From positions 1 to 37,669 of the forward strand of contig DXFI01000072.1 in the NCBI GenBank assembly GCA_019114565.1: DNA of 37,669 bases, in the 5' to 3' direction. Both the position numbers and the translations under genes were made by a program. The stretch is from Candidatus Desulfovibrio intestinigallinarum. GTDB taxonomy: Bacteria; Desulfobacterota; Desulfovibrionia; Desulfovibrionales; Desulfovibrionaceae. The notes under the pieces were generated by a model, which was not told the DNA's origin, did not search any database, and saw only the letters and a program-made list of their open reading frames with translations. Positions 159 to 27,615 of this stretch are shown in pieces (position 1 is the first letter of the stretch; each line of letters starts with the position of its first letter).

Positions 159-222
159 TGGAGCGTTTCAACTTTGAAAAAGGTGAAACGCGAGGCGGCG
201 GCACGGCGCCGCCCGGCTCTGT
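159..222 (+). repeat. Family A repeat, copy a (left part only)
   Basis: GGAGCGTTTCAACTTTGAAAAAGGTGAAACGCGAGGCGGCGGCACGGCGCCGCCCGGC. Confidence 0.8.
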
Positions 223-8187: not shown

Positions 8188-8280
8188 GCCCCCACCCTTC
8201 CCCCAACGCGCTTTTCTCAAAAAAACGGAACGATACGAAAACGCCGGAGCTTTCCTTTCGGTAATCGTCTCCCGGAAAAA

Positions 8281-8403
8281 TAAAACGCGAGGCTGCGGCA
8301 CAGCCCACCCAGCCCAAAGTGAGCGAAAAAAAACGCATTTTTTCCACGAAACGACAGGCCGTATGGTTTGAAATGTGAAGCGTTTCAAACTGAAAATGCC
8401 ATA
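8281..8403 (+). repeat. Family A multi-hairpin repeat, copy b (5' end truncated)
   Basis: Matches other copies: AACGCGAGGC..., CACGAAACGACAGGCCGTATGGTTTGAAATGTGAAGCGTTTCAAACTGAAAATG. Confidence 0.85.
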
Positions 8404-8432: not shown

Positions 8433-8640
8433 TCCCCGTCTTCCGAAAAAGCGCGCTGGGGAAAGGATGGGGGGCTTGGGGGGAAGGGCCCAGCCTTTTC
8501 ACAGCGCAGCGAGAAAAGGCGTTCTCGTAGTCCTCTCGCGCGAGCAGCGACCGAATGGCGGCCGCAGGCCGTGCCCGTTGCGACGAAGGAAGCTACGGGC
8601 ATCGACAGCAGAGATGAGGGGTTTCCCTTCCCCCCAACAG
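8433..8640 (-). repeat. Family C hairpin with loop insert, copy C4 (downstream of the lactate permease, minus-strand sense)
   Basis: GGGGGGAAGGG at 8478-8488 complements CCCTTCCCCCC at about 8625-8635; from about 8531 the insert is nearly identical to window start 27-133. Confidence 0.85.
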
Positions 8641-12311: not shown

Positions 12312-12373
12312 CAGAACGCGAGGCGGCACAGCGCCGCCTCGCGTTTCACCTTTTTCAAAGTTGGAACGCTCCA
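12312..12373 (-). repeat. Family A repeat, copy c (truncated), abutting a family B element
   Basis: Minus-strand GGAGCGTTCCAACTTTGAAAAAGGTGAAACGCGAGGCGGCG...; includes a 13-bp perfect stem AACGCGAGGCGGC/GCCGCCTCGCGTT. Confidence 0.8.
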
Positions 12374-12680
12374 GGGTCAGGACTCATTATCAGATGTTGA
12401 TTTTCCGGGATATTCATCCATGTAATGATGTGAAAAAAGAAAAAAAACAAAATATCATTGCATGTTACAAAAATGTCCATCTTTACCCGTCAGACTCCGC
12501 GCGCGGGTTTTGGGGAGGATGGGGGAGTTTTAGGGGGAAGGAACCCCTTTTTGCCGCAAGCAGCGACCCAACGGGCGGCCGAAGGCCGTGTCCGTTAGGC
12601 GACGCAGGAGCCTTACGGACATCGACAGCAGAGCAAAGGGGATCCTTCCCCCTCAAGACAAACGTAATGCGTCCTGACCC
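12374..12680 (-). mobile_element. Family B MITE-like element (307 bp) containing a family C hairpin with loop insert
   Basis: Terminal inverted repeats GGGTCAGGACTCATTAT / GGGTCAGGACGCATTAC; right flank TA, left flank CA; interior collinear with 27252-27480. No transposase ORF. Confidence 0.8.
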
Positions 12681-14203
12681 TAGCGGCCGTCTTCTTCCCG
12701 CAGCCGCCAGAGAGTTTGCAGGCGTCGGGCATAGCTGTGCTTTGCGCGCAGCTCCTCCCGCCAGGCGGCGCAGAACGCTTTTGTTTTTTCCGGCGACGCG
12801 GCAAAGGTCTCCAGCCGCTCCGGCAAATCCGCGGGACGGCGCAGACGCATGGGTTCCACCAGTGACGCGGGGAATATCTCCAGCCCCGGCGTGGCGTCGC
12901 TCAGCAGCAGACCATGCGCGGCCCAGACATCGAAATGACGCTGACTCAGGCTGTGCGGCAACAGCAGACTCGTCACGTTAAGCACAGCGCCGGAACGCGC
13001 ATAGAGTTCCGGCAGGCCCGCATAATAATCCACGGGAGGCTCCACGGGAGCGCCGGGCAGCACATTCCGCCAGCCATCGTCACCCACAAGGCGCAGCTTC
13101 GCCGCCGCCAGAGCTTCCCGCACCCAGTGCACGCGCCGGGCCTGCGAACAGCTTTCCGCCCCCAGTCCCACGCAGCGCACGGCAGTCCCCGGCCAGCAGT
13201 CCCCGCCCAGCCGTTCGTGCCACCAGTGAAAATCCGGCGGTACGGGATCGTCCGCCGCCACCAGTTGCAGGCCCTCGGTCAGCAGCTCCGGCGGAACCGA
13301 GGCAGCGGCAAAGAAGCTCCCCTTGCGCGGAAAGGCGGAACGCCCCACAAACAGCGGCGACCCCTCCCTCCGGCACAGCGGCGCATGCCACATATGCGGC
13401 GCAACGGCCAGCGGCAGCAGCGACACATGTTGCGCGCCCGCCCGCCGCAGACCATCAAGAAAGCTCGCATCCGTGACGCATATGCGGCAGTCCCGCCACC
13501 ACGGCCCGCGCGCGGCGCTCAACAGATGCCAGGGATTATCCACGCACCAGATGACGACGGAAATCCCCGCCGCAAGGCAGGCATGCGCAAGTCGCCCCTC
13601 GGCATCCAGCCCCCGCAGATTGACGGAAAGCAGCATGGCCGGCGCATGCGCCGCCGCCCGGCGCAGCAGCGGAAAGAGCGCGGCCCCTCCCTTGTCCGGC
13701 GGATAGTCCAGGACGCGCAGCCCCAGTTCCCGGGCGGCATGCCGCAGCTCCAGATGCAGCAGCCCGTGTTCGTCGCCGGGCAGGATCAGCAGAGGCCCGG
13801 CCCCGACGGCACGCGGCGGCAGCGGACAGCAGGCCGCCGCCATACGCCCCAGCAGCGGCCCCCAGAACTCCGGCGCAAGACGCAGCCCCGGCCTGTAGAA
13901 ATAACGGCGGCAGCGCGCCGCCAGCGTTACGGCCTGTTCCGGCGTCACCTCCTGCCATGAGGACGGCGGCAGCGGCGCGTCCGGCAGCGCGCGGCGCGTG
14001 TCCGGACAGTCCAGCCAGAACACGCGCCCGGAAGCGGCAAAGGGCAGCGCCGCCGGATCTTCCGGCCCCAGCCCCAGCAACAGACAGTCGCCGCCTTCCG
14101 GGCCCGCCGCTTCCCACTGACGGGCATCGCCCGAAAGCGTCAGCGGGCGTCCGCAAAAATCAGGAATCGCAACACGGCGGGGAGCTCGGGGGGAAGACGT
14201 CAT
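12680..14203 (-). CDS. Glycosyltransferase, CgeB/DUF3880-like
   Basis: [38 protein letters not shown], and C-terminal [40 protein letters not shown], as in CgeB-type family members. Start set at [10 protein letters not shown]. Confidence 0.75.
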
Positions 14204-14279: not shown

Positions 14280-14924
14280 ATGAAAGAATATCGTGATCAC
14301 TACTTCCTCAAGGCCAAGCGGGAAAACTACCCCGCCCGTTCCGTCTACAAACTGAAGGAATTGGACGGCAAATTCAAGTTGTTCCGCCAGGGAATGCGGG
14401 TTCTCGATCTGGGAGCCGCTCCGGGTTCATGGTCGCTGGGCGCCGCGGAAAAGGTGGGGCGCAACGGCCTTGTGCTGGGCTGCGACATCCAGACCACCGA
14501 AACGGTCTTCCCCGCGCAGGTCACCTTCATGGTGGAAGACGTTTTTCAGCGTTCCCCCGAGTTCGAGGCCAGACTCGACGAAATCGGCCCCTTTGACGTG
14601 GTCATGAGCGATATGGCGCCTCGCACAACCGGCACCAAGTTTACCGATCAGGCGCGTTCGCTGGAGCTGGCCTGCGAGGCCCTCACCGTGGCCCGCATGC
14701 GCCTCAAGCCCGGCGGCAGCTTTGTGGTCAAAATTTTCATGGGGCCGGATATTCAGGAGCTCCTTGCGCCCATGCGCAAGGCTTTCGGCACGGTCAAATC
14801 CTTCAAGCCCAAGAGCTCCCGGGCCGAAAGCAAGGAAACCTTCTTCGTCGGCATGGCCTTCCGGGCCGAAGCTGCCCTCGATCCCCACGCTCCCCCCGAG
14901 CTTCCCCCTCCCTTCGGGGAATAA
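14280..14924 (+). CDS. rlmE: 23S rRNA (uridine-2'-O)-methyltransferase RlmE/FtsJ family
   Basis: [36 protein letters not shown] motif, [43 protein letters not shown]. Confidence 0.93.
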
Positions 14925-15068
14925 CGCGCTTTGCCTTTGAACAAGGCGGAACGCGAGGCGGCGGCACAGCGCCGCCCGGCCCGAAGTGAGCGGAAAAACC
15001 GCTTTTTTCCGCGAAATGACAGGCCGTACGATCTGAAACGCCACGCGTTTCAGACTGAAAAAGCTCTG
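14922..15068 (+). repeat. Family A multi-hairpin repeat, copy d; begins at the rlmE stop codon
   Basis: TAACGCGCTTTGCCTTTGAACAAGGCGGAACGC aligns without gaps to the consensus left end TAGAGCGTTTCAACTTTGAAAAAGGTGAAACGC; downstream hairpins conserved. Confidence 0.85.
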
Positions 15069-16102: not shown

Positions 16103-16250
16103 TAGAGCGTTTCAACGTTGAAAAAGGTGAAACGCGAAGCGGCGGCACAGCGCCGCCCGGCCCGAATTGAGCGGAAAACCACGCTTTTTCCACAAGACGA
16201 CAAGTCGTATGCATTTGAAACGCAACGCGTTTCACACTGAAAATTCTTCA
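16103..16250 (+). repeat. Family A multi-hairpin repeat, copy e
   Basis: TAGAGCGTTTCAACGTTGAAAAAGGTGAAACGC...GACGACAAGTCGTATGCATTTGAAACGCAACGCGTTTCACACTGAAAATTC. Confidence 0.88.
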
Positions 16251-16259
16251 GGGCTCTCT

Positions 16260-16775
16260 GTGGTAACAGTCATCGGCATAGACCCCGGTTCCCGCCTCAT
16301 GGGCTGGGGTATCGTCAGCGACCGCTCCGGCGTTCTGCGTCTGGAGGGCTGCGGCGTCATCCGCGGCGCTCAGGGCCCGGACAAAAGCTTTTCCGCGCGT
16401 CTGGCCCGTATCTATGCCGATCTGAACGACGTTATCCGGCAGTATAAGCCCACGGAAGCCGCCATAGAGCAGGTTTTCACCGCCCACAACGCCGCCACGG
16501 CCCTCAAGCTCGGGCAGGCGCGCGGCGTGGCCGTGGCGGCCTGCGCCGCATACGGCATCGGCGTCAGCGACTACCCGCCCACGCTGGTCAAAAAAACGCT
16601 GGTCGGCACCGGCAGCGCCGCCAAGGAACAGGTGTCCTTCATGATCCGCCGCCTTCTCAATCTCCGCGACGAACAATGGGACCCGCGCTGGACGCTGGAC
16701 ACGTCCGACGCGCTGGGCATCGCCATCTGCCACCTTACCATGCGCCGCTTTGCCGCTCTTCAGGCCTCGCACTAG
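16260..16775 (+). CDS. ruvC: Crossover junction endodeoxyribonuclease RuvC (GTG start inferred)
   Basis: VTVIGIDPGSRLMGWGIV, AAIEQVFTAHNAATALKLGQARGVAVAACA, DALGIAICHL; the upstream ORF extension lies inside repeat copy e. Confidence 0.95.
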   Translation: MVTVIGIDPGSRLMGWGIVSDRSGVLRLEGCGVIRGAQGPDKSFSARLARIYADLNDVIRQYKPTEAAIEQVFTAHNAATALKLGQARGVAVAACAAYGIGVSDYPPTLVKKTLVGTGSAAKEQVSFMIRRLLNLRDEQWDPRWTLDTSDALGIAICHLTMRRFAALQASH

Positions 16776-16921
16776 AGCGTTTCAACTTTGAAAAAGGTGA
16801 AACGCGAAGGCGGCGGCACAGTGCCGCCCGGCCAAAAGTGAGCGGAAAAACTGCGCTTTTTCCGCGAAACGACAGGCCGTATGGTTTGAAATGCAAAGCA
16901 TTTCAAACTGAAAATGCTCTA
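16773..16921 (+). repeat. Family A multi-hairpin repeat, copy f (best-preserved, 149 bp); begins at the ruvC stop codon
   Basis: TA|GAGCGTTTCAACTTTGAAA ... TTTCAAACTGAAAATGCTC|TA; four consecutive stem-loops including GTTTGAAATGC-AAA-GCATTTCAAAC. Confidence 0.92.
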
Positions 16922-19497: not shown

Positions 19498-19643
19498 TAG
19501 AGCATTTTCAGTTTGAAATGCTTTGCGCTTCAAACCATACGGCCTGTCGTTTCGCGGAAAAACGCGGTTTTCCGCTCGCTTCGGGCCGGGCGGCACTGTG
19601 CCGCCGCCTCGCGTTTCACCTTTTTCAAAGGTAAGAGCCTCTG
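19498..19643 (-). repeat. Family A multi-hairpin repeat, copy g
   Basis: TTAGAGCATTTTCAGTTTGAAATGCTTTGCGCTTCAAACCATACGGCCTGTCGTTTCGCGGAAAAACGCGG...GCGTTTCACCTTTTTCAAAGG. Confidence 0.9.
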
Positions 19644-22453: not shown

Positions 22454-22596
22454 ACGAGAGCGTTTTACCTTTGAAAAGCAACACGTGAGGCGGCACTGCG
22501 CCGCCCGGCCCGAAGTGAGCGGGAAAACGCCTGTTTCCGCGAAACAACAGGCCGCAGGGCTTGAAACGCGCAGTGTTTCAGACGGAAAATGCCCGA
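22454..22596 (+). repeat. Family A multi-hairpin repeat, copy h (diverged)
   Basis: GAGAGCGTTTTACCTTTGAAAAGC...GAGGCGGCACTGCGCCGCCCGGCCCGAAGTGAGCGGGAAAACGCCTGTTTCCGCGAAACAACAGGCCG...TGTTTCAGACGGAAAATG. Confidence 0.85.
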
Positions 22597-24167: not shown

Positions 24168-24178
24168 AATCACTTTTG

Positions 24179-24262
24179 TTGAGGGGGAAGGAACCCCTTT
24201 TGCTTGCGGCAAAAAAGGGTTCCTTCCCCCTCAAACTCCCCCATCCTCCCCAAAACCCGCCT
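24179..24262 (+). repeat. Family C G-arm/C-arm hairpin, copy C7, downstream of the ABC ATPase
   Basis: TTGAGGGGGAAGGAACCCCTTTTGC...GCAAAAAAGGGTTCCTTCCCCCTCAA stem followed by ACTCCCCCATCCTCCCCAAAACCCGC. Confidence 0.85.
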
Positions 24263-24264
24263 GT

Positions 24265-24415
24265 TAGAGCAATTTCAGTTTGAAATGCTTCGCATTTCAA
24301 ACCATACGGCCTGTCGTTTCGCGGAAAAAGCGCGGTTTTTCCGCTCACTTTGGGCCGGGCGGCGCTGTGCCGCGCCGCCTCGCGTTCCGTCTTTTTCAAT
24401 GGCAAAACGTTCTGA
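24265..24415 (-). repeat. Family A multi-hairpin repeat, copy i
   Basis: TTAGAGCAATTTCAGTTTGAAATGCTTCGCATTTCAAACCATACGGCCTGTCGTTTCGCGGAAAAAGCGCGGTTTTTCCGCTCACTTTGGGCCGGGCGGCG... Confidence 0.92.
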
Positions 24416-26088: not shown

Positions 26089-27252
26089 ATGCCTTCTTTT
26101 TCTGTCCGCCCGGAAATCGCCGCCCTCAGTCCCTATGTGCCGGGCATGTCCATTGAAGAAATCCGGCAGCGTTATCAGCTGGAAAATGTCGTCAAGCTGG
26201 CCAGCAATGAAAATCCCCTCGGCACGCCGCCGCTGGCCGCGGAAGCCATCCGCCGCTGCGCCGCGGGGGCCTTCCGCTACCCCCAGTCCGGCAATCCGCG
26301 CCTTGCGGCCGCGCTGGCGGAACTGCACCACGTCGATGCGCGGCGCATTGCCATCGGCAACGGCTCCGACGAAATCCTCGACATGCTGATTCGCATGCTG
26401 GCCGAACCGGGGCGCGACAATATTGTCTGCTTCCGCCCCTGCTTCAGCATTTATCCCATTCAGAGCAATATCTGCGGCGTGGAAGTCCGCAGGCAGTCCC
26501 TCAACGGCGACTTCAGCTTTGATTTCGACGCCCTGCTGAATCTCGTCACCGACAGGACGCGCCTCGTCTTCATCACCACGCCGGACAACCCCTCCGGCTA
26601 CTGCCCGCCGCGTGCCGACGTGGCCGCTCTGGCTGCCCGGCTTGCCGCCAGGGCCCCGCAGGCCCTGCTGGTCATCGACGAAGCCTATATGGATTTTGCC
26701 GGAGACGATGCCGACGGCGAGCGCCGCTTCTCCCTGCTGGCAAACAGCGAACTGCCGAATAACGCTCTCGTCTGCCGCACCTTCTCCAAAAGTTACGGCC
26801 TGGCCGGACTGCGTATCGGCTACGCCGTGCTTCCCGAAGAGCTGGCCCAGTATTACTGGCGCGCCCGCCTGCCCTTCTCCGTCAACGTGCTGGCCGAGGA
26901 GGCCGCGCTGGCGGCCCTGCGCGACACGGCCTTCCGCGAAGCCACGCTGACGCTTGTCCGCACGGAACGTCGCCGCCTGACAGAGCGCCTGCGCGATCTC
27001 GGTTTTTCCGTCTGGCCCAGCCATGCCAACTTCCTCCTCTGCCGCCCCGATGACGACGGCCCCGATGCCAAAGCCTGCTTTGAGGCCCTGCTCAAACGCG
27101 GCTTCATCATCCGCCCGCTCGGCAGCTATCAGCTGCCGGATCATCTGCGCATCAGCATCGGCACAAAGGAAGAAAACGACGCCTTCCTCGCCACGCTGGA
27201 AGATGTGCTGCGCGAGCTGGATACGAACGAACACCGGGCCGACGTCTTCTAG
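26089..27252 (+). CDS. hisC: Histidinol-phosphate aminotransferase
   Basis: LASNENPLGTPPLAAEAIRR, TPDNPSGYCPP, VIDEAYMDF, RTFSKSYGLAGLRIGYAVLP (PLP Lys), IRPLGSYQLPDHLRISIGTKEEND. Confidence 0.95.
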   Translation: MPSFSVRPEIAALSPYVPGMSIEEIRQRYQLENVVKLASNENPLGTPPLAAEAIRRCAAGAFRYPQSGNPRLAAALAELHHVDARRIAIGNGSDEILDMLIRMLAEPGRDNIVCFRPCFSIYPIQSNICGVEVRRQSLNGDFSFDFDALLNLVTDRTRLVFITTPDNPSGYCPPRADVAALAARLAARAPQALLVIDEAYMDFAGDDADGERRFSLLANSELPNNALVCRTFSKSYGLAGLRIGYAVLPEELAQYYWRARLPFSVNVLAEEAALAALRDTAFREATLTLVRTERRRLTERLRDLGFSVWPSHANFLLCRPDDDGPDAKACFEALLKRGFIIRPLGSYQLPDHLRISIGTKEENDAFLATLEDVLRELDTNEHRADVF

Positions 27253-27480
27253 GGTCAGGACTCATTATCAGATGTTGATTCCCCCGACATATTTTCCTGC
27301 TCACGATATAGAAAAAAATAAAACATCATTGCATGTTATAAAAAAATCCATCTTTACCCGCCTGCACATTATGTGCGGGTTTTGGGGAAGATGGGGGAGT
27401 TTGAGGGGGAAGAAACCACTTTTTGCCGCGAGCAAAAGGGGTTTCTTCCCCCTCAAGAAAACCGTAATGAGTCCTGAGCC
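27252..27480 (+). mobile_element. Family B MITE-like element (229 bp) containing a family C hairpin without insert
   Basis: Termini GGGTCAGGACTCATTAT / GGCTCAGGACTCATTAC (inverted), flanked by TA on both sides (27250-27251, 27481-27482); interior collinear with 12374-12680. Confidence 0.85.
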
Positions 27481-27615
27481 TAAAGCGTTTCAACTTTGAA
27501 AAAGGTGAAACGCGAGGCGTCCAGCGCCGCCCGGCCCGAAGTGAACGGAAAAAGTGCGTTTTTTTCCGCGAAACGACAGGCCGTATGCTTTGAAAGCATA
27601 ACGTTCCAAACTCGC
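27481..27615 (+). repeat. Family A multi-hairpin repeat, copy j (right end degenerate)
   Basis: TAAAGCGTTTCAACTTTGAAAAAGGTGAAACGCGAGGCG...CGCGAAACGACAGGCCGTATG. Confidence 0.88.

Follow-up and report, generated by a model that had tools for sequence, protein, structure and literature searches.

Between the genes of a 37,669-nucleotide stretch of the Candidatus Desulfovibrio intestinigallinarum genome (contig DXFI01000072.1; hereafter the window), a repeat of about 149 bp with four consecutive hairpins recurs some ten times. The questions raised by this repeat, here termed Family A, are what kind of element it is and where any selection on its fold acts. We conclude, with a probability of roughly 0.85, that Family A is a non-autonomous mobile element (a MITE) of the IS630/Tc1-mariner type, presumably moved in trans by an IS630 transposase and with a fold that would be needed by the mobile lineage. 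The first-pass annotation of the window described a genome-wide intergenic repeat of four hairpins. That description stands, although the annotation missed the likely identity of the repeat as a TA-flanked MITE whose ends match those of a co-resident IS630 element.

Copies in the window and in the genome

An nhmmer model and direct comparison recovered the repeat at all ten stretches where it had been reported and, as claimed, in both orientations. Seven copies are complete or nearly so (about 135-150 bp) and three are truncated. Both nhmmer and the covariance model described below recognise the focal copy (16773..16921, + strand), which is full-length, near consensus and has TA at both ends, its TAG forming the stop codon of the gene at 16260-16775. 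Also recognised by both models is the full copy at 14922..15068 (+), which supplies the stop codon of the gene at 14280-14924. Its first bases are TAA (TAG in the sister genome G098), and the corresponding place is filled in G098 and in G020. The same two models identify full copies at 16103..16250 (+, with a decayed right end), 19498..19643 (-, with a decayed left end) and 24265..24414 (-), and a nearly full copy at 27481..27615 (+) that has a decayed right end and abuts another repeat at TA on its left. The remaining full copy, at 22456..22596 (+), has a corresponding filled place in G020 and an empty site in G098. Left ends with hairpins 1-2 were detected by nhmmer at 159..222 (+, model positions 2-60) and 12312..12373 (-), and a copy without most of hairpin 1 was detected by nhmmer (model positions 20-143) and the covariance model at 8276..8403 (+; originally delimited as 8281-8403).

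The window genome (G000) spans 2.9 Mb in 297 contigs and is 92% complete. A right-end pattern allowing at most one mismatch matches these 2.9 Mb 278 times and a reversed control not once; thus, the occurrence of Family A is beyond chance. The sample drawn from this genome, comprising the window and 40 other stretches (645 kb), contains 195 non-overlapping copies, which cover 3.5% of the sequence and of which 113 are full-length. In 41 stretches (820 kb) of G098, mostly its first and largest contigs and not selected by repeat content, we identified 206 copies (129 full-length). Extrapolation yields about 500-510 full copies per genome in G000 and G098 alike, or 3-3.5% of the DNA; the G000 figure may be too high because its contigs were partly picked for carrying the repeat. 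The earlier guess of several hundred copies is thereby borne out (about 510 in G000 and a similar figure for G098), and the genome-wide scan finds copies well beyond the window. Many are 97-99% identical to the consensus, and we therefore regard Family A as recently active. At several hundred copies per genome, it shapes the DNA between genes and at their 3' ends in these Desulfovibrio, and short-read assemblies may break at its copies.

Other repeats also occur in the window. One, a second MITE-like family, is found at 12371-12684 and 27249-27481. It has the inverted ends CTAGGGTCAGGAC(T/G)CATTA, against which Family A copies lie directly at 12373 and 27481. With its first copy as query, 26 matches of at least 100 bp were found in the G000 sample and 33 in that of G098. 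A third family (1-158 and 8440-8640) contains the hairpin GCCCGT-TGCGACGAAGGAAGC-TACGGGC, which occurs in 9 copies in the 645 kb of G000 and 20 in the 820 kb of G098; long elements of another genome, G017 (L256, L267), enclose an almost identical hairpin, and a literature search for the loop sequence returned no report of it. Also present is a long palindrome (TTGAGGGGGAAGG..CCTTCCCCCTCAA), whose mutually inverted copies of 87 nt at 24174-24260 and 27375-27461 are 92% complementary and adjoin Family A copies.

Insertion at TA and a candidate transposase

Family A is 146-150 bp long (about 148 bp), with imperfect TAGAGC..GCTCTA ends and no transposase gene; its consensus starts with TAGAGCGTTTCAACTTTGAAAAAGGTGAAACGC and finishes with GTTTGAAATGCNAAGCATTTCAAACTGAAAATGCTCTA. 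The modelled element begins with A and finishes with T, and among 104 full copies the preceding base is T in 72 and the following base A in 82, which gives the unit TA-GAGC...GCTC-TA. TA is found at both ends in most copies, and copies in tandem have one TA in common. Empty sites were sought by joining the flanks of each full copy and using the result as a query against the other species. The junction was spanned by an alignment for 7 of 106 copies from G000 and 9 of 125 from G098, several of which are tandem-copy cases or are gapped near the junction. In the cleanest cases the dinucleotide is present once at the empty site and twice at the filled one, as in AGCGGAGGGCATAGGAG (empty) versus CATA[GAGCG...GCTC]TAGGAG. 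G098 lacks the window copy at 22456-22596; its empty site reads CACGAGGA, so the duplicated dinucleotide is GA there, not TA. Family A thus has the features by which MITEs are recognised, being short and non-coding, with terminal inverted repeats and a TA target-site duplication (GA at one site).

A partner was sought by searching for the IS630-type DDE domain (PF13358). On contig C286 of the window genome (14007-15001; L058) we identified an IS630-family element of 995 bp with TAGAGC ends and a DDE_3 transposase. The transposase is encoded in two reading frames, of 135 and 208 aa, which overlap and align above cut-off with successive segments of the NCBIfam IS630 transposase model. A run of eight A between the frames suggests a programmed frameshift. 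The DDE part resembles the Sleeping Beauty transposase, and one end of the element equals the left end of the MITE at 21 of 22 bases. Six further fragments of this IS lie at contig ends of the same genome, as expected because repeats break the assembly. G098 carries a 91%-identical IS in tandem with a MITE, with one TA common to both. Records labelled Hydrogenedentota, Verrucomicrobia, Phycisphaerae and Rhodoblastus contain related IS630 elements whose ends are likewise TAGAGC. Because the ends match, we infer that the IS630 transposase moves the MITE in trans.

A second DDE_3 gene of the window genome (L059) was considered as a partner and rejected, as it encodes a different protein with other HTH matches. 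Also identified was a second small element of about 117-140 bp that derives from the IS630 left end (contig C293, 2180-2296, L067, and about eight other places) and in several cases includes an inverted copy of that end. It forms another MITE family, and its partner is likely the same.

The pairing of IS and MITE ends held in G000 and G098. As proof of partnership everywhere, species-specific end matching was abandoned: it failed in G024, where the match is poor (13 of 22), and the match in G002 is not specific. Most of the repeat-rich genomes tested, including the single-contig G088 and G064, have no DDE_3 transposase, and there the partner was probably lost or is of another kind. In G088, at least 40 copies are 90-100% identical to one of them, an amplification without a visible partner. 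The existence of such genomes would fit a REPIN-like element that a Y1/RAYT-type transposase moves in single-stranded DNA form and that resembles IS630 at its ends by coincidence, and the hairpins, extragenic location and compensatory changes of Family A do resemble those of REPINs (PMC3116915). Given the terminal inverted repeats with TA duplication and the co-resident IS630 with a matching end, we regard this origin as very improbable.

For a MITE of the IS630 type, the transposase supplied in trans would bind the TAGAGC-type ends and cut the element out, and the excised element would be joined to a TA elsewhere, with duplication of the TA. The insertions that survive would be chiefly intergenic ones, above all those on stop codons: there, TA followed by the first base of the element, G, would form a new TAG in either orientation. 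The observed placement was assessed with genes called by a purpose-written, hexamer-scored ORF caller. Overlaps of more than 20 bp with a predicted gene were seen for only 1 of 113 full copies in G000 and 2 of 129 in G098, in agreement with the initial statement that the repeat avoids the interiors of coding sequences. The density per kb is highest between convergent genes (1.66 in G000, 1.46 in G098), intermediate in tandem gaps (1.27 and 1.11) and lowest between divergent genes (0.70 and 0.36). Copies lie exactly on a stop codon in 31 of 113 cases in G000 (10.5% expected, p = 4e-7) and 31 of 129 in G098 (8.6% expected, p = 1e-7), 2.6 to 2.8 times the expectation from available TA sites. Insertion turns TA into TAG because the element starts with G on both strands; in the window, the copies at 16773 (TAG) and 14922 (decayed end, now TAA) are so placed. 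This placement suggests a simple way for a TA-targeting element that starts with G to spare its host. Between tandem genes, 87 copies have the orientation of the genes and 47 the opposite one (p = 7e-4, a significance overstated by the shared ancestry of copies).

The fold and where selection on it acts

Structure prediction for the focal copy (16773-16921) folds all four of the consecutive stems named in the first-pass annotation, with a minimum free energy of -68.1 kcal/mol (z = -6.7 versus 200 dinucleotide shuffles). Beyond those stems, the ends of the element are predicted to pair together, enclosing the four hairpins, and hairpin 3 is predicted to consist of an outer CGGCC/GGCCG stem that had gone unmentioned, an internal loop and an inner GCGGAAAAA/TTTTTCCGC stem. 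The description of the repeat as longer and more elaborate than REP/ERIC units was apt. Also observed were isolated palindromes of 28-37 bp (L020:14669-14696, L053:5510-5537 and L031:3479-3515) that have ends of the TAGAGC type and look like hairpin 1 by itself; these could be the smallest unit or remnants.

A covariance model built from 22 copies of six species matches 48 of the 79 genomes of the genus (Desulfovibrio) and finds no match in the other 31. Across the family, it matches 83 of 288 genomes in 13 of 44 genera, some of these by weak single matches. Representatives of 27 subfamilies mostly have one order of hairpins, with stem sequences that are largely different. A decayed copy from G008 and a few others fold less cleanly, those from G007, G074 and G100 are without clear TAGAGC ends, and in one group (G017, G088, G066, G010 and G070) the third hairpin is different and a further hairpin is added. 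In the seed alignment, 13 of 25 pairs have changed on both sides and 95.8% of cells pair. The covariation score is 0.373; shuffles score 0.133 and slid structures no higher than 0.077, the latter comparison being favourable to the structure in that it was derived from the same alignment. The folds of MITEs are usually regarded as a by-product of inverted ends. In Family A, the fold appears to be important to the element in its own right.

Matching of hairpin arms can also arise by mutation, if template switching within quasi-palindromes makes the arms match without selection on the fold. Such mutagenesis acts on long near-perfect inverted repeats, and the stems of Family A are a substrate of just this kind. 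Pairs beyond the internal loop of hairpin 3 covary too (columns 70-71/102-103), however, and the mismatched internal loop beside the hairpin-3 stem persists in type I subfamilies instead of being corrected. Resident copies, moreover, lose arm matching. We therefore consider a purely mutational source of the covariation unlikely.

A covarying fold might instead mark Family A as mainly a functional structured RNA (one that stabilises mRNA 3' ends, is targeted by an RNase or acts as a regulator), preserved by the host at many loci, with mobility as its origin only. The many copies that follow stop codons and the excess of co-oriented copies in tandem gaps fit such a role, as does the + strand, where G-U pairs outnumber A-C mismatches (400 versus 315, a test whose significance shared ancestry likewise overstates); the G-U excess and orientation bias are weaker evidence that the + strand has a role as RNA. 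If the host used each copy, old copies should keep the fold. Retention was measured on 185 copies with at least three private substitutions, with gaps filled from the inferred ancestor. Their mean energy is -60.2 kcal/mol, compared with -58.1 for randomly placed substitutions and -71.8 for the inferred ancestors. Resident copies have thus undergone about 85% of the loss of fold that random mutation brings, with a small but significant retention (p = 1.6e-5, again overstated by common descent) that may come from shared ancestry and leaves room for some locus-level selection. With ungapped copies only, the same test gives p = 0.22 (34 copies, underpowered). Between sister species, copies that occupy one and the same site have diverged by 8-17% and their flanks, which are partly coding, by 1-6%. 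Taken with the sites that are empty in a sister species and the 31 of 79 genus genomes without a match, these results make a host-maintained RNA quite improbable as the main identity of Family A.

The window copy at 22456-22596 and the copy at the same site in G020 (contig C39, L192) have decayed ends in common and differ by 17% inside, with flanks that are 97-99% identical. Gene conversion by other copies could explain the internal difference.

Selection appears to act mainly on the moving lineage rather than on each locus, because the fold is conserved between subfamilies yet decays in resident copies, and copies at the same place diverge faster than their flanks. In a mobile element of this type, the fold may help the ends to meet or to be recognised as folded single-stranded DNA; alternatively, it may make an inserted, transcribed copy harmless. 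A bolder and rather doubtful reading is that Family A is an old, family-wide element whose spread requires a specific multi-hairpin fold, as RNA or single-stranded DNA; this fold would act jointly with an IS630 (DDE) transposase or, where IS630 is absent, another factor. We know of no fold requirement for cut-and-paste elements of the IS630/Tc1-mariner superfamily. Compensatory keeping of the fold together with decay in resident copies suggests that selection acts on the element itself, and makes Family A a test case for the strong structure of bacterial MITEs.

Comparison with known systems

None of the 4227 models of Rfam 15 matched the window or ten related loci at the curated threshold. 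The best permissive match, Transposase-2, has E = 0.78 and 15.6 bits, against a threshold of 42.7. A literature search for Desulfovibrio MITEs returned no description of Family A, in keeping with the early remark that no named family fits. Several described elements are nevertheless comparable.

The repeat unit of pneumococcus (RUP) is 107 bp long with 9-bp ends, was reported in 108 copies and is very rarely found outside close relatives (PMC2229807), and its mobilisation in trans by IS630-Spn1 has been proposed (PMC2229807; PMC3049150). Like RUP, Family A is short and intergenic and has TA ends, and for both elements mobilisation by a resident IS630 is proposed because the ends match. Going by its description, RUP is set apart by the length of Family A (about 148 bp), its several hundred copies and family-wide distribution, and its covarying fold of four or more hairpins. 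The Correia/NEMIS elements of Neisseria are also small TA-flanked MITEs with inverted ends and high copy number, and Correia transcripts are folded. As described, however, they have 24-bp ends, promoters and an IHF site and lie predominantly upstream of genes, whereas Family A is rarest between divergent genes. Nezha, a MITE of cyanobacteria, is proposed to be moved by a resident ISNpu3-like IS with similar ends (PMC3049150); by this description it is like Family A in having a proposed resident partner, in different hosts.

REPINs are miniature extragenic mobile DNA whose fold is kept and in which compensatory changes are common (PMC3116915). The hairpins of Family A show such changes too, a common property rather than proof of membership. 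REPINs are inverted REP doublets with one hairpin, are associated with tyrosine transposases (RAYTs) and have no described TA duplication (PMC3116915). Family A, in contrast, has several hairpins between TA-flanked terminal inverted repeats, in place of a single-hairpin REP doublet, and its candidate partner is a DDE transposase.

What we consider new in Family A is the joining of two features: it is a MITE of the IS630 type, and its multi-hairpin fold has been conserved across a bacterial family. The nearest precedents are RUP, as a MITE of this type, the Correia elements, in their size and TA ends, and REPINs, as miniature elements with compensatory changes.
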